From Planctomycetia bacterium (lineage in GTDB: Bacteria > Planctomycetota > Planctomycetia > Pirellulales > PNKZ01): a DNA stretch of 64,000 bases. A model generated the notes under the pieces. The model was not told where the DNA came from, searched no databases, and was given only the letters and a program-made list of their open reading frames with translations. Positions 11,623 through 63,788 of this stretch are shown here, in pieces. The position numbers and the translations under genes are program-made. The stretch is from positions 1 to 64,000 of the forward strand of contig JAIOPP010000001.1 of assembly GCA_021413845.1 (NCBI GenBank). The letters are read 5' to 3'. Numbering within the stretch: position 1 is the stretch's first letter; every line of letters begins with the position of its first letter.

Positions 11623-14052
11623 ATGCCGCACCTACTCGGCTGCCTACGCCTAGCCGCATTCCCGATCTGCTTTTGGGTCTGGGCCTGTTCGTTGTCTCAG
11701 GCCGACGCCGCCGAACCGCTGGAAGTAACTCCTGCGACGGTGACGCTCGATCGGCCGGAGAGCACGCTGCAGTTGCTCGCTACGATCCGAGCGGCCGATG
11801 GTCGGGCCGTCGATGTGACGCGCGCGGCGAAGTATCGGATCGAAGGTCCGGGACCGGCGAAGGTCGACGCCTTGGGGCTCGTCGAACCGGTGCGCGACGG
11901 CAAGACCACGGTCGTCGTCGAACATGCCGGCCGTGCGGTTCGCATTCCCGTCACGGTCGCCACGGTCGACCATCCGGTGCCTATCTCCTTTCCTCACGAC
12001 ATCCTGCCGATTCTTACGAAGACCGGCTGCAACACCGGCGGCTGCCACGGCAAAGCCGAAGGCCAAAACGGGTTCAAGCTCAGTGTCTTCGGCTTCGATC
12101 CGCAAGGAGACCATGCGGCGCTCACGATGGAAGGGCGCGGCCGACGCGTGTTTCCATCGGCACCCGACGAGAGCTTGCTGCTCCGCAAAGCGACGGCCGA
12201 AGAACCGCACGGCGGCGGCCAGCGGATGGAAGTCGATAGCCTCCGCTATCGCCGAATGAAGCGGTGGATTTCGGAAGGGGCCGGGTACGTTATCGAAGGT
12301 GCGCCGCAGGTCGTGCGGATCGAAGTCGAACCGGCGGAGCAGGTCTTACTGGCGCGCGAGAGCCGGCAAGTGCGCGTGTGGGCCATCGACGACAAGGGGG
12401 CCCGACACTGCGTGACGACCGAAGCCGAATACGAATCGAATGCGACGACCATTGCCGGAGTCGACGACCGCGGACTCGTGCAAGCCGCCGACATTCCGGG
12501 CGAAGCCGCGATCTTGGCCCGCTACCTGGGGCACGTCACCGCTTGCCGCGTTACGATTCCGCGGCCGGGCGTGAAGTTCACCCGCCCGCCGGAAGTGAAC
12601 TTCATCGATCGCTTAGCGTGGGACAAGCTCGAACGCCTCGGCATTGAGCCGAGCCCTTTGAGCGACGACGCCGGCTTCGTGCGTCGCGTCTATCTCGACG
12701 TCATCGGCACGCTCCCGACCGCCGCCGAAGCACGATCGTTCCTGGCGGACAAAGCGGCCGACAAACGGGCGAAGCTGATCGATCAACTTCTCGCTCGGCC
12801 CGAGTATGCCGACTATTGGACGATGCGCTTCAGCGATGTGCTGCGCGTCGATCAATTCAAGATCACGCCGGCCGGCTCCGTGGCGATTACCCGTTGGTTG
12901 CATAAGCAGTTCTCCGAGAATCGGACGTACGATTCGATGGTGCGCGAGCTTTTGACCGCGAAGGGGAACGTGAAAGCGGAAGGCCCGGCGGCGTATTACA
13001 AAGCGCTGGATACTCCGGAATTGCTGGCGCGCGGCGTAAGTCAGACGTTCCTCGGCGTGCGCTTGGAATGTGCGCAGTGTCATCACCACCCGTCGGACAA
13101 ATGGGGCCAAGACGACTACTACGCGATGGCCGCGCTCTTCAGCGGCGTGACGAACAAGAAGCTGGCCGGCGGGGGCGAAGCGGTCGTGCCCGGCTTAGCG
13201 AAGGAAGTGAAACATCCGCGCACGAACGCAGTGATCGCGCCGCGCACGTTGGGAGGCGAGCCGGTCGAGTTCGCGCCGTATGAAGATCGCCGCGCGCACC
13301 TGCTGCGCTGGATGGTCGCCGACTCGAATCCGTATTTCTCGACGATGATCGCCAATCGGCTCTGGTCGCACTACTTCGGCCGGGGCTTGGTCGAGCAGAT
13401 CGACGACCTGCGCGCGACGAACCCGGCCACGAACGAGCCGCTGTTGAACGAGCTAGCGAAGCACATGCGCGCCTCGAAGTACGATCTCAAGGCGTTCACG
13501 CGTACCTTGCTCAACTCGCGCCTTTATCAACTCAGCTCCGAGCCGACGCCGAGCAACATCGGCGACTCGCAGAACTTCTCGCACGCCGCGCATAAGGCCC
13601 TCTCGGCCGAGGTGCTGCTGGATGCATTCTGCGAAACGACGGGCGTAGCCGAAGAGTTTCAAGGCTGGCCGTTGGGAACCCGGGCGATTCAAATTTGGGA
13701 CAACCGCCTGCCGCTGTACTTCTTCCGCATCTTCGGCCGGCCGGTGCGCGTGACGGTGTGCGAATGCGAGCGGAGCAACGAGCCGAGCATCGCGCAGGCC
13801 CTGCATCTGATGAACTCGCCCGAGATGGGTGCCAAAATTCAAGACCGAAGCGGCCGTGCGGCGAAGCTCGCCGCTTCGACTCTGGCGGTCGATGTCGTGA
13901 TCGAGGAGTTGTTTCTGACGGCGCTGGCCCGCCTGCCGCGCGCCGAAGAGCTCACCGCCTCGCGTTCGGCGTTTTCCGGCGATCGCCGTCGGGGTGCCGA
14001 AGATGTCTTATGGGCCCTGCTGAATAGTAAAGAGTTTCTCTACAACCGTTAG
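11623..14052 (+). CDS. Surface cytochrome-like DUF1549/DUF1553 protein, CX4CH type (operon A)
   Basis: 809 residues from the ATG at 11623 (signal peptide MPHLLGCLRLAAFPICFWVWACSL); a longer frame begins at 11563 but lacks a sensible leader. Order: bacterial Ig-like domain (residues 33-112), a heme-type motif CNTGGCH (136-142, a CX4CH spacing) inside a PSCyt-like segment, a second Ig-like domain (230-312), DUF1549 (about 326-530, with FIDRLAWDKLE, FVRRVYLDVIGTLPT and the CAQCHHHP motif at 483-490), and DUF1553 (about 560-800, ANRLWSHYFGRGLVEQIDDLRATNPATN). These proteins are taken to be exported, possibly heme-binding, surface proteins; function is unproven. Nine bp separate it from the DUF1501 gene. 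Confidence 0.87.
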   Translation: MPHLLGCLRLAAFPICFWVWACSLSQADAAEPLEVTPATVTLDRPESTLQLLATIRAADGRAVDVTRAAKYRIEGPGPAKVDALGLVEPVRDGKTTVVVEHAGRAVRIPVTVATVDHPVPISFPHDILPILTKTGCNTGGCHGKAEGQNGFKLSVFGFDPQGDHAALTMEGRGRRVFPSAPDESLLLRKATAEEPHGGGQRMEVDSLRYRRMKRWISEGAGYVIEGAPQVVRIEVEPAEQVLLARESRQVRVWAIDDKGARHCVTTEAEYESNATTIAGVDDRGLVQAADIPGEAAILARYLGHVTACRVTIPRPGVKFTRPPEVNFIDRLAWDKLERLGIEPSPLSDDAGFVRRVYLDVIGTLPTAAEARSFLADKAADKRAKLIDQLLARPEYADYWTMRFSDVLRVDQFKITPAGSVAITRWLHKQFSENRTYDSMVRELLTAKGNVKAEGPAAYYKALDTPELLARGVSQTFLGVRLECAQCHHHPSDKWGQDDYYAMAALFSGVTNKKLAGGGEAVVPGLAKEVKHPRTNAVIAPRTLGGEPVEFAPYEDRRAHLLRWMVADSNPYFSTMIANRLWSHYFGRGLVEQIDDLRATNPATNEPLLNELAKHMRASKYDLKAFTRTLLNSRLYQLSSEPTPSNIGDSQNFSHAAHKALSAEVLLDAFCETTGVAEEFQGWPLGTRAIQIWDNRLPLYFFRIFGRPVRVTVCECERSNEPSIAQALHLMNSPEMGAKIQDRSGRAAKLAASTLAVDVVIEELFLTALARLPRAEELTASRSAFSGDRRRGAEDVLWALLNSKEFLYNR

Positions 14053-52250: not shown

Positions 52251-55200
52251 ATGAAATTTCAAGCTCAGTTGCGATATCGTTTGCTTCCGCTGCTGATGAG
52301 CATCGCTTCCGTCGCGAACGCCGCTCCGGGCGAATCGCTTCCGTCGGCAGTTCAGGAGCGGGACCTCGATCTCGCCGCTTGCCAGTCGTGGACCGGCGCG
52401 GCGACGAAAGCAGCCTCGCTCGACGACGTGTCGGGAGCGTTGGGGTTGATGGTTCCGAAGTATCCCGGCTGGGCCGCAGGCATCGTAGCGAAACCGGGAG
52501 AAGCGGAGACGTTTCTTTATCGAATCGCTCTCACGCGTCCTATTAAGCTTGGCGCGCTTTACATTCCGCGGAACTATGAAGCTCGGCTTTTGAAGGCCGA
52601 CGCGCCGTATCCCGGCGATCCGAAGAATGAGACGCACTGGGTGCAACTTCATGCGCCGGCTCAAGCCGGCGGCTCGACGTTCGCTTTGGCGAGTGAAACG
52701 GAGTGCCGCGCTCTGTTGTTCCGCGAAACGATCGGCAACGGACGCTCGCACCTGCAAGGCGTGCGACTTTATACGCCGCGGCTGCATAACGTGACGCCCG
52801 ACTCGCAGCCTTATGCCGCCGAAGAATATACGCCGCCGAATACGGACCATCCTACGCATCCCGCCTCGAACCTGATCACCGGACAAGGGGCCTGGAAGAA
52901 CGCCGGTAAAGATCAATCGGGCCGTGTGCCGCGAGCGCCGATCAACGATCTCTTTCCGTGCGTGTTTTTGGTGAGTTGGAATGAGCCGCAACAACTTGCC
53001 GGCTTGGTCTTGAATTCCAATTTCGAGAAGTTCAGCGTCGAAGTTTTCGACGGTCCGGCCGATGTCCATCCGAAGGCGGGAACTGCGGCGGAATGGCGCG
53101 CGCTCGATGTGACCGGCGGCCCGGCGATTCCGAGCGAAGCAAAACAAACGTGGCGCTATTTGAGCTTCCCGCCGGTCGCGACGCGGGGCCTGCGATTAAC
53201 CGCCGCCAAGACCGCCGAAGGGCCGCTCGCGGAAATCTCGGCGCTCCACACGCTGATCGATCTCGGGACTCGTCCGGTGCCGACGCGCTCGGTCCGCGAG
53301 TCGTCGGCGCCGATCACGATCAAGCTACCGCTGGCCGAAGCAATGAACGTTACGCTCGGAGTGAACACGCCCGATGGTCGGCGTATTAAAAATCTTGTCG
53401 TGCGCGAACCGCGCGCGGCGGGAGAGCAAGCGATCGGTTGGGATCTTAAAGACGGCGACGGCAATTTCGTCGCGCCGGGCAAATATCCTTGGACGGCGAT
53501 CACCTATCCCGATTTGCGCACGCGCTACGAGATGACGGTGTATCCGAACGTCTCGCGCTACGCGCCGGAGAATTCTCCTTGGCTCAACGCCTTGAACGGC
53601 AGCGGCGGCTGGATGGCCGACCATTCGCCGCCGGTCAGTGGTTGTGCGGCGGGCGACCGTGTGTATCTCGGTTCGTATGTCGCCGAAAGCGGAGTATCGC
53701 TCATCGAATGCGATCTCAAGGGGCAGAAGCTCTGGGGGCATCATTCGTTCGCCGCTTGGACTGGCCCGCAATTTCTCGCCTCCGATGGCAAGGAAGTGTT
53801 CGTCGGCGCGAATATCTTGGATACGAGTAACGAATCGGTTTGGGCGGTCGATATGACCACGAAGGAAGTTCGCCGCCCGTTGTCGTTGGTGCCGACGTCG
53901 ACGCGCCCGCGCGGCATGCGCGGCTTGGCCGTTCACGACGGCAAAATCTACATCGCCTGCCAAGGGGTGGAAAGTTATCTGACGAATGCCGCTTCGGCCG
54001 ACGATGTCGACGTGGCGAAGTGCGTGCCGTTTTATCCTCCGGCCCGACCGCCTCGCGTGCAGTACGAGATCGTGCCCGACCGGCGCAACGACTTTCTCCG
54101 GCTGTTTCGTCTCCAAGGAACGCCGCCGGGAGGAGCGACGCAGTACACACTCGAACGCCTACGACCGCTCGGCATTGAAGCCGATCAGCAGCATGTCGTC
54201 GTGGCATTTCAGCGACCGGTCGCGATCGGCAGCCTTGCGTTTCCCCTGCCGCAGTTGAAGGGGGCGCGCGTCGTCGTCAGCGTGCTGAAGGGGACTGCTT
54301 CGTACCCGCCCGACGCCGAGCGGGAAGACTCTTGGACACGCTTGCCCGATCAAGCGAAGCAAGCGTGGGACGTCGTTCCGTTGCCGCCGAATACGGAGAC
54401 GCGCGCTGTGCGGATCAGCTTCTTGCGCGGCGCCGCGGGCGAAGGGGATCCGTTGGCCGGCCTGCTCGAGAAACCGAAAGCAAAGAAAGAAGGTTTCGAC
54501 GGCCTCGACAAACCGAAGACCGCAAAGCGCGACGACATGCTGAACTTCGGCGGCAGTTCCGAAGGAAATCCGGAATACGGGCTCGAAGGGATGAAGCTGT
54601 TGCGACGTCGCTTGGCGAACGTGGCCGGAGACGCGAAAATTAGCGTGAGCTCCGGCAAGGTCGGAACCGATGGTGTGTGGGATGCCGAGCGGACGAGCCC
54701 GCTGACGGAAAAAGATCCCGGCATCTATCTGATGCAATGGTCGCAACCGCAATCCCTGCGCGGTTTGGCGATCAAAGAGATCGACGGTGAGCTCACCAAG
54801 ATCGACGTCCTAAAAGATACCGGCACGCAAGCCGTCGAGTTGCGCGGCGACGAAGGCTGGGAGACGATCGCCGAGTATCGTCAGGAACGACGCGACCATC
54901 ATACCGGTTTCCCTAGCGCCAACGGCACGGCGCGCTATGTCGACGGCTATGTCGATTTCGGGCGCGATGTGTCGACCCGCGCCGTGAGGCTGCGAGTGGT
55001 CAAGCAATGGACCGATAACCTGCCCGACTCGCGCGGCATCCGCGCCGACTTAGGCGGGGTGAAGCTCGATGCTACCCGTTGCCGCATCTTCGGCGTAGCG
55101 GCACTCAAGTATCTCGGCGGCGAGCCCGCGATCGATGCCGCGGCGTTCCAACGGATCGAAATTTACGATGCCCGTTCGGGAGCCCCCGTCGGCGAAGTGC

Positions 55201-57554
55201 CGCTCGCACTGCCGGGGCAGATCGCGGTCGACGCGAAAGGGGAATTGCTTGCGGTCTCCGGCACGTCGATCGTGCGCGTCGATCTCAAACAAGGGAAGCA
55301 CGCGAAGCTGATCGACGGATTGGAGCAGCCCACGGCACTCGCCTTGGACCGGCAGGGAAATATCTACGTCTATGAAAACGGATCGGCTCACAAGCAAGTG
55401 CGCATTTACGATCCGTCGGGCACTCTCTTGCGTTCGATCGGCAAGCCGGGCGGATTCGTCGCCGGAGCTTGGGATGCCGAGCGACTCGGCGACGTCACGG
55501 CTTTGGCGGTCGATGCGCAAAATCAGCTGTGGGTCGTCGAGAATCAATACCACCCGAAGCGCATCACCGTTTGGAGTACGAACGGCGAACTGATTCGCGA
55601 GCATCTCGGCAACACATCGTACGGCGGCGGCGGCGTGCTCGATCGCAAGGACAAGAGCCGGCTATTCTACGGCCCGATGGAATTCGAACTCGATTGGAAA
55701 ACCGGACTGTCGCGGATCAAGTATCTGAATTGGCTCGGCAAGACGCCTCCGGGCGAAGTGCTACACGAAATCGACGGCAGAAGTTATCTCGTCACGCGGG
55801 CGGGCTTCGCCGAGCAACAGGTCGGCGTCGTCTATCGCTATGAACAAGGGAAGGCTCGACTCGCCGCGGCGATGGGACAAGCCGATATGTTCGAGCCGCT
55901 TAAAGAGACGAAGCTCTGGAACGAACTCGGAAACAAACCTTTGGCTCAAAGCTCGTTCTTGTGGAGCGACCTGAACGACGACGCCGAAGTGCAAGCGATC
56001 GAGGTGAAGCTGTTCGATGCGAAATCTCGCCAAGGACTCACGCTCTTCAATCGCGACTTGGGTATTCAAGGGGGTCCCACGCGATATACGGTGAAGCAGT
56101 TCTTGCCGTCGGGAGTGCCTATTTACGAGATCACGACGAATCCGAAGCTCGCAGGAATCATTTATCGACTCGACGGCGGCGGCTATCACAAGGTAGGCAA
56201 TCAGATCCACGAAGTCGGACTGGCCGCCGACGGCATGACGCGCTGGACGTATCCGGTCGACGGGATGGGCGTGCAGCCGTTTAATACCACGAAGCCCTGG
56301 CGGCGCGATCAGATTACGTCGCAGTTCGGCATCGTCGGCCATGAATCGACCGGAGCGCAAGGACCCGGTGAGTTCGTGATCATTCACGCCAACACCGGTG
56401 CTTGGAACATTTGGACTCATGATGGGTTGCTCATCGGTCCGCTGTTCCGAGACTTGCGTGATCCGCAAGCGAAGCCCTGGAGTATGAAGGAGCATGCCCG
56501 CGGTAGTTGGCTCGAAGACATTACCAGCGGCCAAGAACATTTCCGCGGCCACTTCAGTCGCAACGAGCAAGACGGGAAGTATTACGCCATCGCCGGGCAC
56601 AACCACATCTCGGTCCTCGAAGTCGCCGGGTTGGAGCAAGCCCAGCGGATCGGCGGAACTCTCGATATTACACCGGCCGATCTCGAGCGCGCGCAGAAGT
56701 GGGACTTGAACCGTGAGCAAGTCGAGGTCTATCAACGGGCCGCGGTCGTCGATGCCTATCGGCTGCGCAAGCCGCCGGCGATCGACGGTCGCCTCACCGG
56801 TTGGGGAGCGGCCGATGCCGCGATCTCGGGCCTCGACGACGATTACCGCTCGACGACCGGAGCCGAGTTCCGCATCGGCTACGACAAGGAATCGCTCTAC
56901 TTGGCGTGGCGCGTCCGTGGCTTAGGGCCGCTTAAAAACACGGGAGAGCAATGGGAACGGCTGTTCAAGACGGGAGCCTCGGTCGACCTGCAACTGGCGA
57001 CGAGCTTGGAAGCCACAGCAGATCGACAGGCTCCGGAAGTCGGCGATCTGCGGCTGTTGTTGACCTTCGTCGGCGATAAGCCGAAGGCGGTGCTTTATCG
57101 TCCGGTCGTGCCGGGCACGAAGCCGGAGAACGTCGTGCGCGTGACGTCGCCGACCGGCGAAACGACGTTCGACGAGATCAAACAACTGAACGACGTGCGA
57201 CTCGTGCGCTCGGGCGATGACAAGCAGTACACGCTCGAAGCGGCGGTGCCGCTGAGCGCGTTGGGGATCAAGCCGGAGCCCGGCTTGCGATTGAAGCTGG
57301 ATTGGGGGGTGCTCGTCAGCGGGCCCGACGGCAATGAAGTGATGCGGCGAATCTATTGGTCGAACAAGGCGACGCAGATCGTCGCCGACGCACCTAGCGA
57401 AGCACGCTTGCAGCCGCACCTTTGGGGGCACGTTCGCTTCCAAGACTTACGCCCCACGGCGGAAGAGCAACTAGAAACTCTCGCCGGCGACAAGAAGGCA
57501 AAAAAGAACTCCGTCGATGACTTGCTCAACGACATCAAGCCGGGAAAGAAGTAA
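52251..57554 (+). CDS. Giant secreted multidomain protein (FlgD-like, NHL, DOMON/CBM9-like)
   Basis: 1767 residues. Leader YRLLPLLMSIASVANAAPGE. Residues 30-340 are discoidin-like (NVTPDSQPYAAEEYTPPNTD, QQLAGLVLNSNFEKFSVEVFDG). A FlgD-type Ig domain lies near 364-420 (LGVNTPDGRRIKNLVV, AIGWDLKDGDGNFVAPGKY). A first propeller-like part (450-600, YVAESGVSLIECDLKGQKLWGHHSF) is followed by more discoidin-like segments (640-960) and NHL-type blades around 980-1130 (LPGQIAVDAKGELLAVSGTSIVRVDL, PTALALDRQGNIYVYENGS, VTALAVDAQNQLWVVE). Residues about 1500-1740 resemble CBM9/DOMON (KPPAIDGRLTGWGAADAAI, FRIGYDKESLYLAWRVRG, LEAAVPLSALGIKPEPG). No catalytic site is visible. TACAAT at 52169-52174 may be the -10. 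Confidence 0.8.
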   Translation: MKFQAQLRYRLLPLLMSIASVANAAPGESLPSAVQERDLDLAACQSWTGAATKAASLDDVSGALGLMVPKYPGWAAGIVAKPGEAETFLYRIALTRPIKLGALYIPRNYEARLLKADAPYPGDPKNETHWVQLHAPAQAGGSTFALASETECRALLFRETIGNGRSHLQGVRLYTPRLHNVTPDSQPYAAEEYTPPNTDHPTHPASNLITGQGAWKNAGKDQSGRVPRAPINDLFPCVFLVSWNEPQQLAGLVLNSNFEKFSVEVFDGPADVHPKAGTAAEWRALDVTGGPAIPSEAKQTWRYLSFPPVATRGLRLTAAKTAEGPLAEISALHTLIDLGTRPVPTRSVRESSAPITIKLPLAEAMNVTLGVNTPDGRRIKNLVVREPRAAGEQAIGWDLKDGDGNFVAPGKYPWTAITYPDLRTRYEMTVYPNVSRYAPENSPWLNALNGSGGWMADHSPPVSGCAAGDRVYLGSYVAESGVSLIECDLKGQKLWGHHSFAAWTGPQFLASDGKEVFVGANILDTSNESVWAVDMTTKEVRRPLSLVPTSTRPRGMRGLAVHDGKIYIACQGVESYLTNAASADDVDVAKCVPFYPPARPPRVQYEIVPDRRNDFLRLFRLQGTPPGGATQYTLERLRPLGIEADQQHVVVAFQRPVAIGSLAFPLPQLKGARVVVSVLKGTASYPPDAEREDSWTRLPDQAKQAWDVVPLPPNTETRAVRISFLRGAAGEGDPLAGLLEKPKAKKEGFDGLDKPKTAKRDDMLNFGGSSEGNPEYGLEGMKLLRRRLANVAGDAKISVSSGKVGTDGVWDAERTSPLTEKDPGIYLMQWSQPQSLRGLAIKEIDGELTKIDVLKDTGTQAVELRGDEGWETIAEYRQERRDHHTGFPSANGTARYVDGYVDFGRDVSTRAVRLRVVKQWTDNLPDSRGIRADLGGVKLDATRCRIFGVAALKYLGGEPAIDAAAFQRIEIYDARSGAPVGEVPLALPGQIAVDAKGELLAVSGTSIVRVDLKQGKHAKLIDGLEQPTALALDRQGNIYVYENGSAHKQVRIYDPSGTLLRSIGKPGGFVAGAWDAERLGDVTALAVDAQNQLWVVENQYHPKRITVWSTNGELIREHLGNTSYGGGGVLDRKDKSRLFYGPMEFELDWKTGLSRIKYLNWLGKTPPGEVLHEIDGRSYLVTRAGFAEQQVGVVYRYEQGKARLAAAMGQADMFEPLKETKLWNELGNKPLAQSSFLWSDLNDDAEVQAIEVKLFDAKSRQGLTLFNRDLGIQGGPTRYTVKQFLPSGVPIYEITTNPKLAGIIYRLDGGGYHKVGNQIHEVGLAADGMTRWTYPVDGMGVQPFNTTKPWRRDQITSQFGIVGHESTGAQGPGEFVIIHANTGAWNIWTHDGLLIGPLFRDLRDPQAKPWSMKEHARGSWLEDITSGQEHFRGHFSRNEQDGKYYAIAGHNHISVLEVAGLEQAQRIGGTLDITPADLERAQKWDLNREQVEVYQRAAVVDAYRLRKPPAIDGRLTGWGAADAAISGLDDDYRSTTGAEFRIGYDKESLYLAWRVRGLGPLKNTGEQWERLFKTGASVDLQLATSLEATADRQAPEVGDLRLLLTFVGDKPKAVLYRPVVPGTKPENVVRVTSPTGETTFDEIKQLNDVRLVRSGDDKQYTLEAAVPLSALGIKPEPGLRLKLDWGVLVSGPDGNEVMRRIYWSNKATQIVADAPSEARLQPHLWGHVRFQDLRPTAEEQLETLAGDKKAKKNSVDDLLNDIKPGKK

Positions 57555-57863
57555 TTTCCGGCGGAGATGGAAGCGATCCGAGCTCCGATCGTCATCGCTT
57601 AAACGAAAGCGGAAAACCTGCCTGTTCGATTTAGGCTTTCCATCAACCGCGAGTCTTCAGCGATCGTAAAGACGGCTTCGTTAAGCTAGATGACGCGCCG
57701 AAGTTTCCGGCCTTTCGACTTCACGACTGAGAAGACCCAGCGACGATTCGCGAGGTCGAAGTAGCGGGCTTAGACCGGTTTTTGGAAACCGAAGTCCGAC
57801 CGTATCTCTGACCAACTCCGGAATTGAACTTGGGTCTCGACGTAAACCCTTACAGCGTAAAAG
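57555..57863. other. Intergenic region upstream of the tRNA fragment
   Basis: About 310 bp after the giant gene. I see no coding frame, no complete tRNA and only a weak 7-bp inverted repeat (57571-57577 with 57594-57600) without a T tract. Confidence 0.45.
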
Positions 57864-57903
57864 TGGGCGATACAGGACTCGAACCTGTGACCCCTAGCTT
57901 GTC
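57864..57903 (-). tRNA. 3' fragment of a tRNA-Val gene (probable attachment-site remnant)
   Basis: Read on the minus strand: anticodon GAC (57901-57903), anticodon 3' stem GCTAG, variable region GGGTC, T-arm ACAGG-TTCGAGT-CCTGT, acceptor 3' strand ATCGCCC and discriminator A at 57864, with no encoded CCA. The 5' half (acceptor GGGCGAT, D-arm) is absent in the neighbouring sequence, so the gene is not functional. Stopping at the anticodon is typical of the duplicated core left when an integrase inserts into a tRNA gene. Orientation puts the element on the high-coordinate side. Confidence 0.65.
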
Positions 57904-58465
57904 GAGCGATCTTGGGCCTCGACTAAAAACCGCATGATTATCGAGGAATAGTGCGATTATATCGCTCGCTTGGACTATTTCAATCTCTTTCGTGAGCGCT
58001 CATTTTCTTTCGAGAAAAACGCGTATTGGCGAAGCGACGTGTGCCGAAACGCCGTAGAAGATTTTGGCGGTGGCCGTTGCTTGATGCGGAATGATTCGAG
58101 GCAATCGTGTCGCGACTAGCGGCGTCGCGAAAGAACGAAGATCGAAAGATCATTTGCGCCGCGAAACGAGATCGGTGTATCTTGATCTCGCTCGAGCAGG
58201 CACGGCAGTAGGCCCACTCCAACCTGCGAATCCCGATGGACCGTAAAAACTTGCTCGGCAACCAGATCGACCTGCTGGCCTAGTTCGTCGCGCGACTATG
58301 CGGCCTCTAAAGGTTCGGTCCACTGTTCGCGACCGGATAGCCGCACTATGCTAATTTCTCGTCCCAAGTCGTGGGCGAGGCGCCGATCATTCGTCGCCGG
58401 AAAGTCCCTTCGCTGACGGGCATCGACGCACGTTTCATGAACTCCGCACTCCGTACGAATCGCCG
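57904..58465. other. Non-coding or decayed region between the tRNA fragment and the truncated ORF
   Basis: 562 bp with no supported gene. A TATAAT reads on the minus strand near 57955-57960. A 15-codon ORF at 58238 (MDRKNLLGNQIDLLA) lacks a Shine-Dalgarno and is not called. The stretch may hold decayed island sequence. Confidence 0.4.
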
Positions 58466-59500
58466 ATGACTCCTAAGTCTCTTAAACCGCTGCTGGAACT
58501 TTTCGGAACGTTGAATTCGAACTCTGACCTGACACGGTTTCGCAGCGACTATCGCGAAGTTGTTCGACGACTCCCCGACAACTGCCCTGGTTTCCTGGTC
58601 CGCGCTCAGCATACGCTCGTCGACTGGGGAAGTCGACTGGATCACGAACCCGAAGTCGTCCTCGGGCAATGGCAAGCTCTCTCCGACGACGAATTCGACT
58701 CACTGCCCGACGCCTTGCAAACGCTGCTGTTTCGACTTATGCCGAAGTCGAAGTTTTCGCCCGACCAATGGCGCAGCTTCCTCGCCGAATGCAAAAACGC
58801 TAAGCTCGTCGAAGCCCTGCTGAAGCTACGCTTGATCGGCAAGAAAGACCTTTGCACGTGGATCGTTTCCGACCTGCAGTTCTTTGCTCAAAGCGCCGCG
58901 TTAGACTTCGCCGTACGTGCGAACTTGTTGAAGCCCAACGGCAAGCTCTGGGGGACGATCGCCGAGTCGGCGGCGCGTTCCTCTCGACTCATGTCACGAA
59001 ACGAGCTGCTGGTGTCGGTCTACGAACGCTGGAAAGACGCGCATGCCGACCGCGCTCTCACCACGTTACTTTCGACGGACAGCGACGAGGCGTCGACCGC
59101 GCTATTGTCCGTGTTGCTCGATTCCCCCACGAGCGCAGCACGCTTCATTCGGTTTCTCGCGCCGGAATTGGGCCGGCAGAATTCATCCGAGTCGGCGATC
59201 GAGCGCGTAAACAATTTGTTCTCGCAACTTTGCGTAGATGCGTTAACCGGAACAAACGACGCCCTCCGCCTCGAACGCGCCGGGACTGCCTTTGGATTGT
59301 TGCGTTTAACTTATGATCTCGCACGCTTTAAGACGGACAAGCCGGAGTTGAATTCGGGCATCGAGTTGACGCTGCGAAAATCGGCCGTGGCGATCGCGAA
59401 TTCCATCGCCCATCGAATTGAAGAAAACCCCGCCGCCCCGCAAAACTCGGCGTTTGTAACGCTAAGAGGGGGCGAAATGGCAGCCGTTTTGCGCGGGTGA
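58466..59500 (+). pseudogene. Unrecognised helical protein, 3' end cut by the IS element
   Basis: 344 codons from the ATG at 58466. I do not recognise the family. The product is predicted to be almost entirely helical, with Leu/Ala-rich stretches such as SLKPLLELFGTLNSNSDL, KLVEALLKLRLIGKKDL and SVLLDSPTSAARFIRFLAPELG, without signal peptide or membrane segment. The stop codon TGA (59498-59500) is the first three bases of the IS left inverted repeat, so the natural C-terminus is missing and its true length is unknown. Orientation is convergent with the truncated PLD gene on the other side of the IS. It belongs to the island and could be part of a defence or repair locus. Confidence 0.6.
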
Positions 59501-59509
59501 CCTGCCCCC
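59498..59509 (+). repeat. IS left inverted repeat
   Basis: TGACCTGCCCCC, perfect inverse of 60752-60763. Confidence 0.85.
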
Positions 59510-59569
59510 ATCAAACGAGTCCGGTCGCAAGGTGATAAACTTGCGGCTCTCACTTGAAAGGGGAAGGTC

Positions 59570-59848
59570 ATGGCGAGAAAGCGATTGAGTGTAGAGCAGA
59601 TCATTCAGAAGTTGCGGGAAGCGGAGTTGGAGTTGGCGCGCGGGCAGACGGTTCCGCAGGTGGCGAAGAAGATCGGCGTCACGGAGCAGACTTATTACCG
59701 CTGGCGAAAAGAGTACGGCGGCCTGCGGACGGATCAAGCGAAGCGCTTCAAGGAACTGGAGCAAGAGAATTCGCGACTGAAACGGCTGCTGGCCGACGCC
59801 GAACTCGACAAGGCGATTCTGCGGGAGGCCGCCGCGGGAAACTTCTGA
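59570..59848 (+). CDS. IS3-family OrfA (helix-turn-helix protein)
   Basis: 92 residues. HTH typical of the IS3 family: RLSVEQIIQKLREAELELARG, QVAKKIGVTEQTYYRWRKEYGG, then a leucine-zipper-like tail RFKELEQENSRLKRLLADAELDKAIL used for dimerisation. It binds the inverted repeats. The purine-rich AAAGGGGAAGG just upstream is a strong ribosome site. The last codons carry the frameshift heptamer, so it also forms the N-terminus of the OrfAB transposase. Confidence 0.9.
   Translation: MARKRLSVEQIIQKLREAELELARGQTVPQVAKKIGVTEQTYYRWRKEYGGLRTDQAKRFKELEQENSRLKRLLADAELDKAILREAAAGNF
59836..59842 (+). promoter_or_regulatory. Programmed -1 frameshift site G GGA AAC
   Basis: GGGAAAC has the X XXY YYZ form in the orfA frame, two codons before the orfA stop (59846-59848). 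Slipping back one base gives the orfB frame, which is open to 60729. Confidence 0.75.
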
Positions 59849-60729
59849 GCCCGACCGGTCGGCGACGAGTCGTCGAACACGTGCGGGAGACGCTCGCCGT
59901 GAGCGAGCGTCGAGCCTGCCGTGTGTTGGGACAAGCGCGGGCGACGCAACGTCGCCCGCGGCTCGTTCCCGACGACGAACCGCGATTGGTCGGGCGGATC
60001 GTGAAGTTAGCGAGCGACTACGGTCGCTACGGCTATCGTAGAATTACGGCACTTCTGCGTCGTGAAGGCTGGAGCGTGAACCATAAGCGAGTCGAACGGC
60101 TCTGGCGCCGCGAGGGCTTAAAAGTGCCGCAGAAGCAGCCGAAGCGACGTCGGTTATGGTTCAACGACGGCTCGTGCGTCCGGCTGCGGCCGACGCATCG
60201 CGATCACGTCTGGAGCTATGACTTCGTGCAGGCTCGAACGCACGACGGTCGCGCCTTCCGGATGTTGACGGTCATCGACGAGTTCACGCGCGAGTGCTTG
60301 GCGATCGACGTGGCGCGGAGGCTCACGAGCGAAGACGTGCTAGAACGGCTGAGCGACCTGTTCATTCGCCGCGGCGTGCCGGAGCACATCCGCAGCGACA
60401 ATGGCGCGGAGTTCACGGCCACGAAGATCAGAGAGTGGTTGCAACGGATCGACGTCAAGACGCTCTACATCGAACCGGGGAGTCCTTGGGAGAACGGTTA
60501 CGTCGAATCGTTTAACGGTAAGCTGCGAGATGAACTCTTGGAGCGTGAGATCTTCGACACGCTCCGGGAGGCGAAGGTGCTCATCGAACGATGGCGGAGA
60601 GAGTACAACACGATCCGGCCGCACAGCTCGCTCGGCTACCGACCCCCGGCACCCGAGGCCGTTCAAGCTTGGTCTTTTCGCTACGCTGCGCTCCGCGAAA
60701 AGACCAAGCTTGATTCATCCGAGTCCTAA
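59836..60729 (+). CDS. IS3-family OrfB, DDE transposase (made by -1 frameshift as OrfAB)
   Basis: About 297 codons in the -1 frame relative to orfA; expression as OrfAB would begin at 59570. N-terminal helical region VVEHVRETLAVSERRACRVLGQAR, DNA-binding GYRRITALLRREGWSVNHKRVERLWRREGLKVP, then the rve integrase core with catalytic residues D in WSYDFVQARTHDG, D in PEHIRSDNGAEF and E in PGSPWENGYVESFNGKLRDELLEREIF; the Y-N-x-x-R-PHSSLGYRPP ending is diagnostic of IS3. All catalytic residues are present, so the transposase appears intact. It cuts and joins IS ends via a circular intermediate. Confidence 0.9.
   Translation, partial: GKLLSPTGRRRVVEHVRETLAVSERRACRVLGQARATQRRPRLVPDDEPRLVGRIVKLASDYGRYGYRRITALLRREGWSVNHKRVERLWRREGLKVPQKQPKRRRLWFNDGSCVRLRPTHRDHVWSYDFVQARTHDGRAFRMLTVIDEFTRECLAIDVARRLTSEDVLERLSDLFIRRGVPEHIRSDNGAEFTATKIREWLQRIDVKTLYIEPGSPWENGYVESFNGKLRDELLEREIFDTLREAKVLIERWRREYNTIRPHSSLGYRPPAPEAVQAWSFRYAALREKTKLDSSES
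60663..60713 (+). terminator. Long perfect hairpin over the 3' end of orfB
   Basis: Arms 60663-60681 and 60695-60713 are perfectly complementary over 19 bp with a 13-nt loop, encoding the transposase C-terminus (WSFRYAALREKTKL). No T tract follows. It may block incoming or outgoing transcription or protect mRNA. Confidence 0.6.
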
Positions 60730-60751
60730 CATCACACTTGGTATCAGTACC

Positions 60752-60763
60752 GGGGGCAGGTCA
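60752..60763 (-). repeat. IS right inverted repeat
   Basis: Reverse complement is TGACCTGCCCCC, identical to the left end. Confidence 0.85.
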
Positions 60764-61462
60764 CTAGTACGCCATCTTCAGGTAGATGAAGTAGGGCGCG
60801 ATTGCATTATCACGCGCCCAGCTTTCTTCGATGATCTGTTCTAGCTCGGCGGAAATATCAAGGCACCAGCGATCGCTCCACCGCGCATCGAACCAGTCGG
60901 CAAGTTTTTGACATGCATCCTGATCGAGGACGTCGATGTTGAGTTCCCCTTGGTGCCGAAGTCCGGCGAGCGTCAGGTTGCTGCTTCCCAGGTAGCCGAC
61001 TTTCGGGCTCACTGGGTCAGGGCGGAACAGCAGATATAGCTTGGCGTGCAGCGTGTGGCGGAGGAACAGCTTGACGACGACTTTCTTCGCCCGAAGCTGT
61101 GCCGCAAGTCGGCGAAGACCTGCTTCGTCGGCGTTGTTAGGCGTGCCGACCATGAGCTGGTTACGAAATTCCAGGGCGAGCTTCTTCTTGAGACGAACGG
61201 CCGTGGCATTATCGATTCCGTCTGATGCGCCGTCCTGTTGGAGAGATTCTCGAAGCTCTTCGTAAGGAGACTGATGCATGCCCACGAGGAGCCGACAGCA
61301 GTTTCCCTCGCCACCGGACCAACGTTCGACGAGCTCGTCGACTTGCCGCCAGCCTCGCAGGTTAAAGTAGCCAACGCAAAAGTCGGCGCGATCAGAAACC
61401 GTAAGGGTGCTGCGCAATGCTGGAAGCAGTGATCGATCGATATTGTCGAAGATGTGCGGCAT
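60764..61462 (-). pseudogene. PLD-like N-terminal domain of a truncated SNF2-type helicase
   Basis: 232 codons from the ATG at 61462. The sequence is the N-terminal part of PLD-helicase proteins: MPHIFDNIDRSLLPALRSTLTVSDRADFCVGYFNLRGW, CCRLLVGMHQSPYEELRE, the phospholipase-D box RHTLHAKLYLLFR and VGYLGSSNLTLAGLRHQGELNIDVLD, then ESWARDNAIAPYFIYLKMAY. In full-length relatives this last block leads straight into SNF2 helicase motifs. Here a TAG stop sits at the IS edge (60764-60766), so the helicase domains are gone. Such proteins are found in anti-phage or restriction-type loci. It is probably a non-functional remnant. Confidence 0.75.
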
Positions 61463-61885
61463 GATAACTTGACGTACTTCAATGGGAGTCAGGTTTTACG
61501 AGAGAATTCGGTGCGTCCAGTAGTGAGCGGGTCTCGACAAGGCTTGTCGGTGATTGATTTGCGGAATAGTCCGGCGCTGGCGCGACAACATTCGCTTTCG
61601 CGGTGCTGAATTTGCAGTGCTGCGACGGCACCTTTTCGCGGTGTCGTGTACGAGCGACTTTACCAGAGGAGCCCAGTGCATGACAGCACTCGCGGGCGCG
61701 CATTTCGCGTTGCTGTGATTTGCAAACGCCCGGATGCGAACAGATGGGCAACTAGCTTAACGATCGAGCTAAATCCCGGGGGCGACCGCGTCAGAATACT
61801 TGAGCGAACGCATACCTACCGCGATCGCTTGTCGAACGTCTCGTTCGACCTCTCCCACCGGTTTTTCTTCGTCGAAGGAGAGTCC
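61463..61885. other. Divergent intergenic region before the DUF932 gene
   Basis: 423 bp. The frame of the DUF932 gene is open from 61646, but that part has no recognisable homology; the called start has a strong ribosome site. No hairpin or tRNA is seen. Promoters for both divergent genes should lie here. Confidence 0.45.
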
Positions 61886-62656
61886 ATGGTCAGTTCTACG
61901 CTCATGAATCATTGCGGAGCTCGGCAAGTCAACGCCGCAGAGTTGGCGACGATCGCACCGCCGCCGCCGACACAGACTTGGTTTCCGCTCGCCCACCGTG
62001 CCGTGCTCGACTCGGTCTGCGGTGCACTGGAAGGTGCCGGCTTCTTCATCTGTCGGAGCCGCTTGTCGGTTTCGCACGGCGGCTCGCGGTTCTTCGGTAC
62101 GCTCGACCTGACAACGAACGTCAGCGAGGGCGTGTCGCTCGCCGTCGGGATCCGCAACTCGAACGATCAAAGCTTTCCAATCGGCTTCTGTTGCGGCCAG
62201 CGAGTCTTCGTGTGCGACAACCTCGCCTTCACGAGCGAAATCGTCGTCAGCAAGAAGCACACGCGTTTCGGCCAGGAGCGGTATCTAGAAGGCTTGGCCC
62301 GAGCGGTCGGATCGCTTGATCAATATCGCCGCTCGGCTGCCGGCTGGATCGAACGGATGCAACAGTTCGAACTCGGCGACGACCTCGCGAACTCGCTGCT
62401 CCTGCAAGCCTACGAACGAAAGATCGTCGGGCTCCGGCTTCTGCCGCTGGTCGTCGATGAGTGGCGGAAGCCGTCGCGAGAAGAGTATCGTCCGCGCACG
62501 GCCTATTCACTGTTCAACTGCTTCACAGAGGTCTTGGGCCGTGAACGTCAATCGCGGTTCCCGGCCGAGTCGGCGCTCGCGACGATGCGGCTGTGCAAGT
62601 TGCTCGCGCCGGGCACGGCGTCTGCGGCCGGTGACGACTTCACGACGGCGGCGTGA
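61886..62656 (+). CDS. DUF932 phage/plasmid-type protein
   Basis: 256 residues from the ATG at 61886, chosen because AAGGAGAG (61875-61882) lies just upstream and family homology starts here (STLMNHCGARQVNAAELATI, TQTWFPLAHRAVLDSVCGALE). Further family blocks: RLSVSHGGSRFFGTLDLTT, SLAVGIRNSNDQSFPIGFCCGQRVFVCDNLAFTSEIVVSKKHTRFGQERYLEGLARAV and YSLFNCFTEVLGRE. DUF932 is common on plasmids and phages and is suspected of roles in DNA metabolism, without firm biochemistry. It is followed by an intrinsic terminator and then the ligase gene. Confidence 0.83.
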   Translation: MVSSTLMNHCGARQVNAAELATIAPPPPTQTWFPLAHRAVLDSVCGALEGAGFFICRSRLSVSHGGSRFFGTLDLTTNVSEGVSLAVGIRNSNDQSFPIGFCCGQRVFVCDNLAFTSEIVVSKKHTRFGQERYLEGLARAVGSLDQYRRSAAGWIERMQQFELGDDLANSLLLQAYERKIVGLRLLPLVVDEWRKPSREEYRPRTAYSLFNCFTEVLGRERQSRFPAESALATMRLCKLLAPGTASAAGDDFTTAA

Positions 62657-62765: not shown

Positions 62766-63788
62766 ATGCCTGATTTGCTCGACGGCGAGTCGGTCGAAGT
62801 TCAAGGTTCGGGTCGACTGCCGTATGTCTTGAAGAATACCGGCGGCGTCTATTCCTGCTCATGCCCGGCGTGGCGTAACCAATCGCTGCCGATCGAACGT
62901 CGCACCTGTAAGCACTTGAAGAAACACCGTGGCGAGGCAACGGAAACGGAACGAATCGGCGGCGTCGTGCCTACGTCCTTGTCCTTAACGGCGGATCGGA
63001 AGCCCACGGCACCGCCGCTCCTGTTGGCGGAGACGTGGGACGGCGAGCAAGACGTCGCCGGTTGGTACTTCAGCGAGAAGCTCGATGGCGTGCGAGCCTT
63101 CTGGGACGGCCGGCAATTTCTATCTCGGCAAGGCAACGTCTTTCATGCCCCGGCTTGGTTTCGGGCCGAGTTGCCGGCGGAGCCCTTCGACGGCGAGTTG
63201 TGGCTGGCTCGCAAGTCGTTTCAACGGACAATGTCGATCGTCCGTCGCCAAGACGAATCGGACCTCTGGCGAGCGATCCGCTACGTCGTCTTCGATGCTC
63301 CGGCTCTTGGTGGTCCGTTCGAGGAGCGAATGGAGTATTGCCGCGATCGGTTCGCTCGCTATCCGTCGCAGCTCGTGAACGCATTGCCGCAACGGATCTG
63401 TCGCGGTGTCGATCATTTGCTAGCCGAACTCGACAAGGTGCTGCGCCTCGGCGGTGAAGGGCTGATGCTTCGCCGTCCCGGTTCGCTGTACGAGGCAGGG
63501 CGCTCGTCGACGCTGCTCAAGGTCAAGCGATTCTTGGATGCCGAGGCCCGAGTGATCGGACATCAGCCCGGCACAGGTCGACATCGCGGCCGGCTGGGGG
63601 CCTTACTTGTCGAACTCCCCAACGGAATTCGGTTCGCGGTCGGGACTGGCTTCAGCGATCGGGAGCGTGAGCGGCCGCCGGTTATCGGTTCCACCATTAC
63701 GTTCCGCTACCAGGAGCTTTCCGATCGGGGAGTACCTCGGTTCCCGGCGTTCGCTCGCCTTCGTAACGACTTGTTCGCCGCTTCGTAG
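62766..63788 (+). CDS. ATP-dependent DNA ligase with N-terminal SWIM zinc finger
   Basis: 340 residues from the ATG at 62766, preceded by AGGAGG (62755-62760) at 5 nt. Residues 20-55 hold a SWIM finger, C31-x-C33 and C48-x-H50 (YSCSCPAWRNQSLPIERRTC, then KHLKKH). The ligase adenylation domain follows: motif I YFSEKLDGVRAFWDG (Lys105 forms the AMP adduct), FDGELWLARKSFQ, YVVFDAP, motif IV GGEGLMLRRPG and motif V STLLKVKRF. A short OB-fold ends the protein (FAVGTGFSDRERERPPVIGSTITFRYQELSDRGVPRFPAF). This is a minimal ligase of the type found in accessory repair systems, joining nicks with ATP. The SWIM finger could bind DNA or a partner. Confidence 0.85.
   Translation: MPDLLDGESVEVQGSGRLPYVLKNTGGVYSCSCPAWRNQSLPIERRTCKHLKKHRGEATETERIGGVVPTSLSLTADRKPTAPPLLLAETWDGEQDVAGWYFSEKLDGVRAFWDGRQFLSRQGNVFHAPAWFRAELPAEPFDGELWLARKSFQRTMSIVRRQDESDLWRAIRYVVFDAPALGGPFEERMEYCRDRFARYPSQLVNALPQRICRGVDHLLAELDKVLRLGGEGLMLRRPGSLYEAGRSSTLLKVKRFLDAEARVIGHQPGTGRHRGRLGALLVELPNGIRFAVGTGFSDRERERPPVIGSTITFRYQELSDRGVPRFPAFARLRNDLFAAS

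Follow-up and report, generated by a model that had tools for sequence, protein, structure and literature searches.

The analysed window covers positions 1-64,000 of the 93,810-base contig C1 from the genome of a planctomycete of the order Pirellulales (G000), which amounts to 7.08 Mb in 167 contigs. Within this window, the minus strand carries a 3' fragment of tRNA-Val(GAC) at positions 57,861-57,907, an attR-type core whose 47 nucleotides are identical to positions 145,575-145,621 on the minus strand of contig C26. This block belongs to the sole intact tRNA-Val(GAC) gene of the genome (C26:145,577-145,651, minus strand), of which the fragment retains positions 31-75 of 75, plus two nucleotides, at 100% identity. 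It encompasses the anticodon stem and loop, the variable loop, the T arm, the 3' acceptor strand and the discriminator, followed by CTT. The original prediction had placed a fragment of about 40 nt at 57,864-57,905, which is borne out by a slightly longer block, and it had described the 5' half as missing, which holds since the bases upstream of the break are not tRNA, unlike in the intact gene. The matched block retains just the final two bases of the 5' anticodon-stem strand at its start and is preceded by GATCGC in the fragment and by ACTAGC in the intact gene, as part of the non-tRNA sequence ...TCGAGGCCCAAGATC in the former and of ...GGTTAGAGCACTA at the same place in the latter. This difference locates the break to canonical positions 30-32 in the anticodon stem and loop, one of the known sub-sites of tRNA genes, which comprise the anticodon loop and the T arm or its junction. 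As judged from the sequence, an exact match of 47 nt is far beyond chance, and a reversed control pattern gave no match in a genome-wide scan. No tRNA was detected in the window by either ARAGORN or Rfam at the gathering score, while at a relaxed threshold Rfam assigned 17.4 bits compared to a cut-off of 29, with the 5' half broken.

Genes flanking the tRNA-Val fragment

On the low-coordinate side, the fragment is preceded by a long gene on the plus strand (52,251-57,554) encoding a protein of 1767 residues. This gene closes what is presumed to be the chromosomal flank and lies outside the island. It has a paralogue on contig C29 (49%) and no homologue in three sister genomes (G001-G003). On the high-coordinate side, the genes begin with an open reading frame of 344 residues at the island end (58,466-59,500, plus strand), without a match in Pfam, PADLOC, PHROGs or NCBIfam. 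It is followed by an IS3-type insertion sequence on the plus strand with approximate boundaries at 59,498-60,763, which contains orfA (59,570-59,848) with an HTH_Tnp_1 domain and orfB in an overlapping frame extending to 60,729. Further partial copies of this insertion sequence are found at C1:87,637-88,175, C116:10,154-10,483 and C26:1-140, where it forms the left end of the contig.

Next to the insertion sequence, the minus strand encodes the N-terminal PLD domain of a PLD (HKD)-Snf2 helicase (60,764-61,462; PLDc_2, 1.3e-9), which is cut off at the IS, with a PADLOC HKD and Snf2 match covering positions 81-184 of 948. The following gene on the plus strand (61,646-62,656) is a conserved island gene without family assignment and is 75-80% identical to genes in four loci of relatives, located in the tRNA-Val island on contig C3 and the tRNA-Glu island on contig C2 of G003, on C16 of G002 and on C38 of G003. 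Behind it, an ATP-dependent DNA ligase (62,769-63,788, plus strand) is identified by matches to DNA_ligase_OB_2 (3.9e-28), phrog_114 and PRK09125.1 and shares 67-70% identity with proteins on C38 of G003 and C16 of G002. The predicted change to IS, helicase remnant and ligase genes on the high-coordinate side is therefore confirmed, with the IS located at about 59.5-60.76 kb.

The two latter genes are part of a module at C1:61.6-78.2 kb, which in addition to the conserved gene and the ligase contains a clamp-like protein, a small gene and a PD-(D/E)XK/Cas4-like nuclease. Two giant serine/threonine-kinase-like genes of 1764 and 1513 residues with C-terminal extensions are found within this module (C1:65,976-76,129), and relatives of these genes on contig C158 are likewise located beside it. 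No capsid, terminase or tail gene was detected among the island proteins of C1 that were tested, which cover part of the open reading frames up to 93.8 kb.

Conserved element end and gene module in sister species

The sequence that directly adjoins the fragment towards the island (C1:57,908-58,032, minus strand) is a conserved element end, or attachment-site arm, which contains TCGAGGCCCNNGATC and includes TCGAGGCCC. The closest relatives compared, G001 to G003, are members of the same genus, with G003 being the Pirellula sp. PB1.007 MAG (PNKZ01) of the order Pirellulales. Between C1 and contig C274 of G001, the arm aligns with 82% identity over 174 nt including the core, of which 125 nt are on the island side, and 24 nt of the arm are also present on C2 of G003. 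The arm motif is found in three out of 396 Pirellulales genomes, all of the same genus, and the same number contains a junction 27-mer spanning arm and core (TCGAGGCCCNNGATCGCTCGACAAGCT), which besides its occurrence here is located at position 178,835 of C2 in G003 and at position 6,157 of C274 in G001. In both relatives, the arm adjoins fragments of tRNA-Val. The sequence beyond the core on C274 is 85% identical over 273 nt to the region just 3' of the intact tRNA-Val in G001, as expected where the integrase end of an older element lay. The core on C274 is flanked on one side by the far end of an element and on the other by the integrase end of an older element, as a case of stacked integration. 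On C1, a short motif beyond the core (GGTTTACGTYGAG, about 13 nt) is shared with C2 of G003, and part of the low-coordinate side could thus also be derived from an element.

Conservation extends to the gene module, which on C1 is collinear and of the same polarity with a region on C3 of G003 (30.7-35.8 kb), located 10-15 kb from the tRNA-Val and integrase of that genome. Collinear versions, some lacking the ligase or the clamp, are found on C1, on C16 of G002 and on C2, C3 and C38 of G003, and parts of the module, with gene sets that are incomplete in some cases, are also present on C54, C158 and C116 of the window's own genome. The module is oriented towards the tRNA end, with a 3' fragment at the other end, and on C116 it is joined to a 3' fragment of tRNA-Arg(ACG). 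When genome contigs were scanned with the nuclease, the only match was PNKZ01000003.1, corresponding to C3 of G003. On the island side of the tRNA-Val on this contig, a region of low G+C contains an array of 14 unusual tRNA genes (11,694-13,055), which lies a few kilobases from an ORC-CDC6-like gene and type I restriction-type genes and resembles the tRNA arrays of mobile elements.

A complete case is provided by C2 of G003, where an intact tRNA-Glu(CTC) at position 136,352 is overlapped by the 3' end of an integrase open reading frame and followed by module genes at 151-162 kb, restriction-type genes and, at a distance of 43 kb, by a 60-nt 3' fragment of tRNA-Glu at position 179,616. Just past this fragment lies the remnant of an older integrase, which is related to the one beside tRNA-Glu on contig C125 of the window's genome. 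A tRNA-Val fragment is located inside this island, 730 nt short of its end. The island shares with C1 module genes in matching polarity as well as a tRNA-Val core that adjoins the conserved arm. It carries its tRNA and integrase at one end and the 3' fragment at the other and differs from C1 in its location at tRNA-Glu(CTC), its completeness (43 kb) and its richness in restriction-modification-type genes.

Probable integration at tRNA-Val and alternative origins of the junction

The fragment is very probably the displaced 3' half of tRNA-Val(GAC) at the attR end of an integrated element. We infer a recombination step in which a tyrosine recombinase would act on the attP of the element and on the part of the tRNA gene around the anticodon loop. 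As the attP would carry a tRNA 3' half, a complete tRNA would be rebuilt at the integrase end, whereas the original 3' half would be pushed to the far end of the element. On the minus strand, such displacement would place the element at higher coordinates (57,908 upward) and the chromosome at lower ones. This orientation had been predicted and is supported by the terminal 125 nt and the gene module, which both recur with the same polarity at tRNA-associated islands of sister species. Similarly, the proposed scar of tRNA-targeted integration is backed by the conserved junction in three species, by further 3' fragments and by integrases at tRNA-Val, since integrase genes adjoin tRNA-Val(GAC) in the window's genome, in G002 and in G003, and a decayed one containing stop codons does so in G001. 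Judged by its gene content, the element is best explained as a member of a family in this planctomycete genus, which carries the module described above, from the unassigned gene and the ligase to the Cas4-like nuclease.

The copy on C1 has probably decayed, as indicated by the insertion of the IS, the truncated helicase, the lack of an integrase up to 93.8 kb and a possible eroded core. Neither an integrase nor an intact tRNA is found on C1 between 57.9 and 93.8 kb, where the contig ends at position 93,810, 35.9 kb beyond the fragment, and a weak search for integrase remnants at 57.7-93.8 kb gave nothing better than an E value of 0.05. The last 600 nt of the contig match no other contig of the assembly. 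On the minus strand at C1:80,316-80,332, a stretch of 17 nt matches the T arm of tRNA-Val exactly and scored higher than each of 200 sequences simulated under a first-order Markov model and than five real controls matched in length. This piece is too short to be considered as more than a possible eroded core, and the suggestion that it may represent the other end of the element, whose size would then be about 22 kb, is tentative.

An intact tRNA-Val(GAC) containing the same block was predicted on the minus strand to the right of the window, next to an integrase. Sequence and strand proved correct, and the gene resides on C26, not on the remaining 29.8 kb of C1. An integrase is located directly 3' of it, about 60 nt past its end, as part of a prophage-like element and not demonstrably that of the C1 island. 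This element (C26:121,484-145,651, including the tRNA-Val) contains integrase, HK97-type capsid, terminase and tape measure genes and ends in a fragment of tRNA-Pro(CGG). It is followed by a 10-kb element with an integrase, a Prim-Pol and an MmeI-type restriction enzyme, bounded by two tRNA-Pro fragments. A related prophage, whose integrase is 64% identical, occupies tRNA-Pro on contig C90. The affiliation of the C26 integrase with this prophage-like element, whose far side carries tRNA-Pro instead of tRNA-Val fragments, speaks against the preferred reading, as do the lack of an integrase and of an intact tRNA on C1 up to its end, the short motif beyond the core that is shared with C2 of G003 and the failure to find an empty site. 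The mixed ends suggest an exchange between islands, an insertion within a fragment or chimerism of the contig. In light of the prophage-like element, the tRNA-Pro-bounded element and the relative on C90, C26 and C1 may represent separate elements within a single stacked tRNA-Val array, or have had their ends exchanged by rearrangement, or one of the contigs may be chimeric.

The fragment could alternatively constitute an internal boundary or an element-borne core, within a tandem array, a composite island or a larger island, instead of an outer edge. We regard this as unlikely, and as similarly doubtful that the DNA below 57.8 kb would be partly mobile as well, as this reading implies. There are precedents in the tRNA-Val fragment inside the tRNA-Glu island of G003, which shares a motif of about 13 nt with C1 on the far side of the core, in the stacked elements at tRNA-Val on C274 of G001, and in the tandem arrays known for tRNA islands (PMC4383910). 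Conversely, the genes found below 57.5 kb are long, intact and ordinary for a planctomycete, with a slightly higher G+C, and no integrase remnant adjoins the core. A comparison of 20 kb of the left flank with DNA of the sister genomes revealed scattered paralogue matches and no empty site, and the gene order near tRNA-Val differs between the window's genome and the three sister genomes.

With a probability that we consider low, the junction would originate from a rearrangement, in which an integrase or homology drives an exchange among related islands, or from mis-assembly, with the fragment being carried away from its tRNA. Such exchange is in line with the tRNA-Pro fragments that terminate the tRNA-Val side on C26, with the related prophage on C90 and with the flanks upstream of tRNA-Val, which differ from those common to G001 and G003, and integrase-driven inversions with breakpoints in tRNA genes were documented in Thermococcales (PMC5495485). 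A rearrangement would explain the displaced partner, yet the same integration event is needed to generate the fragment, and the conservation of arm and core in three species argues against an artefact at the fragment itself. Finally, the decay of a second tRNA-Val gene from its 5' end, which would account for nothing beyond the missing 5' half, is highly improbable and was rejected, since the 3' half is perfect, the break at the anticodon loop is abrupt and three genomes share the adjoining non-tRNA sequence together with the exact base at which it begins.

Relation to known tRNA-integrated islands

The mechanism, which is ordinary, textbook tRNA integration, follows the Islander principle, where islands integrated into tDNA leave a displaced 3' fragment (Hudson et al., 2014; PMC4383910). 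As in Islander islands, the fragment matches an intact cognate of the same genome in the same sense, each on the minus strand of its contig, the crossover is centred on the anticodon, an integrase is located beside the intact tRNA and elements are stacked, as on C274 of G001. A difference concerns the location of the intact tRNA and the fragment on separate contigs, C26 and C1. A comparable arrangement is found in PYG1 of Pyrococcus yayanosii, which carries a tRNA gene fragment at attR and a 44-bp direct repeat (PMC9897764). In either case, one copy of the repeat, which here spans 47 nt, lies in an intact tRNA and the other is a fragment, although the present host is bacterial (a planctomycete) and the likeness is drawn from the repeats and not from island content.

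Our literature search revealed neither a description of this element family nor a dedicated paper on tRNA-integrated elements of the planctomycete phylum. New is only the member itself and perhaps the element family with its shared DNA-handling module, which looks restricted to the genus. We consider it conceivable, though less likely than not, that the island belongs to an undescribed genus-restricted family of integrative elements, which would share a module of ATP-dependent ligase, clamp-like protein, Cas4-like nuclease and two unassigned proteins, come to occupy different tRNA genes by swapping integrase and attachment ends and ferry defence genes among Pirellulales. The classical scar of tRNA integration works as island marker in a planctomycete draft genome, where it fixes one edge of an island to the base, and it has brought to light a recurrent element family with defence-type cargo.

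Throughout the genome, about 10 out of 21 matches to integrase domains are located within approximately 1 kb of a tRNA gene. A search that scored 40 out of 66 candidates, and whose count is therefore a lower bound, identified at least six 3' fragments, derived from tRNA-Val (C1), tRNA-Pro (two on C26), tRNA-Arg (C116 and C66) and tRNA-Gly (C6). All of these fragments, including that of tRNA-Val, start at tRNA positions 28-34 in the anticodon arm and retain the 3' end, as fits Islander site class A, which is defined by an anticodon-centred crossover (PMC4383910). The fragments of tRNA-Arg(ACG) at C66:5,834-5,876 and C116:11,290-11,332 each adjoin an integrase or its remnant, with an intact gene and an integrase on C149 in what is probably a tandem array. 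The fragment of tRNA-Gly(CCC) comprises 46 nt (C6:244,765-244,810), and its intact counterpart on C29 is followed by two open reading frames with integrase domains 2-3 kb downstream.
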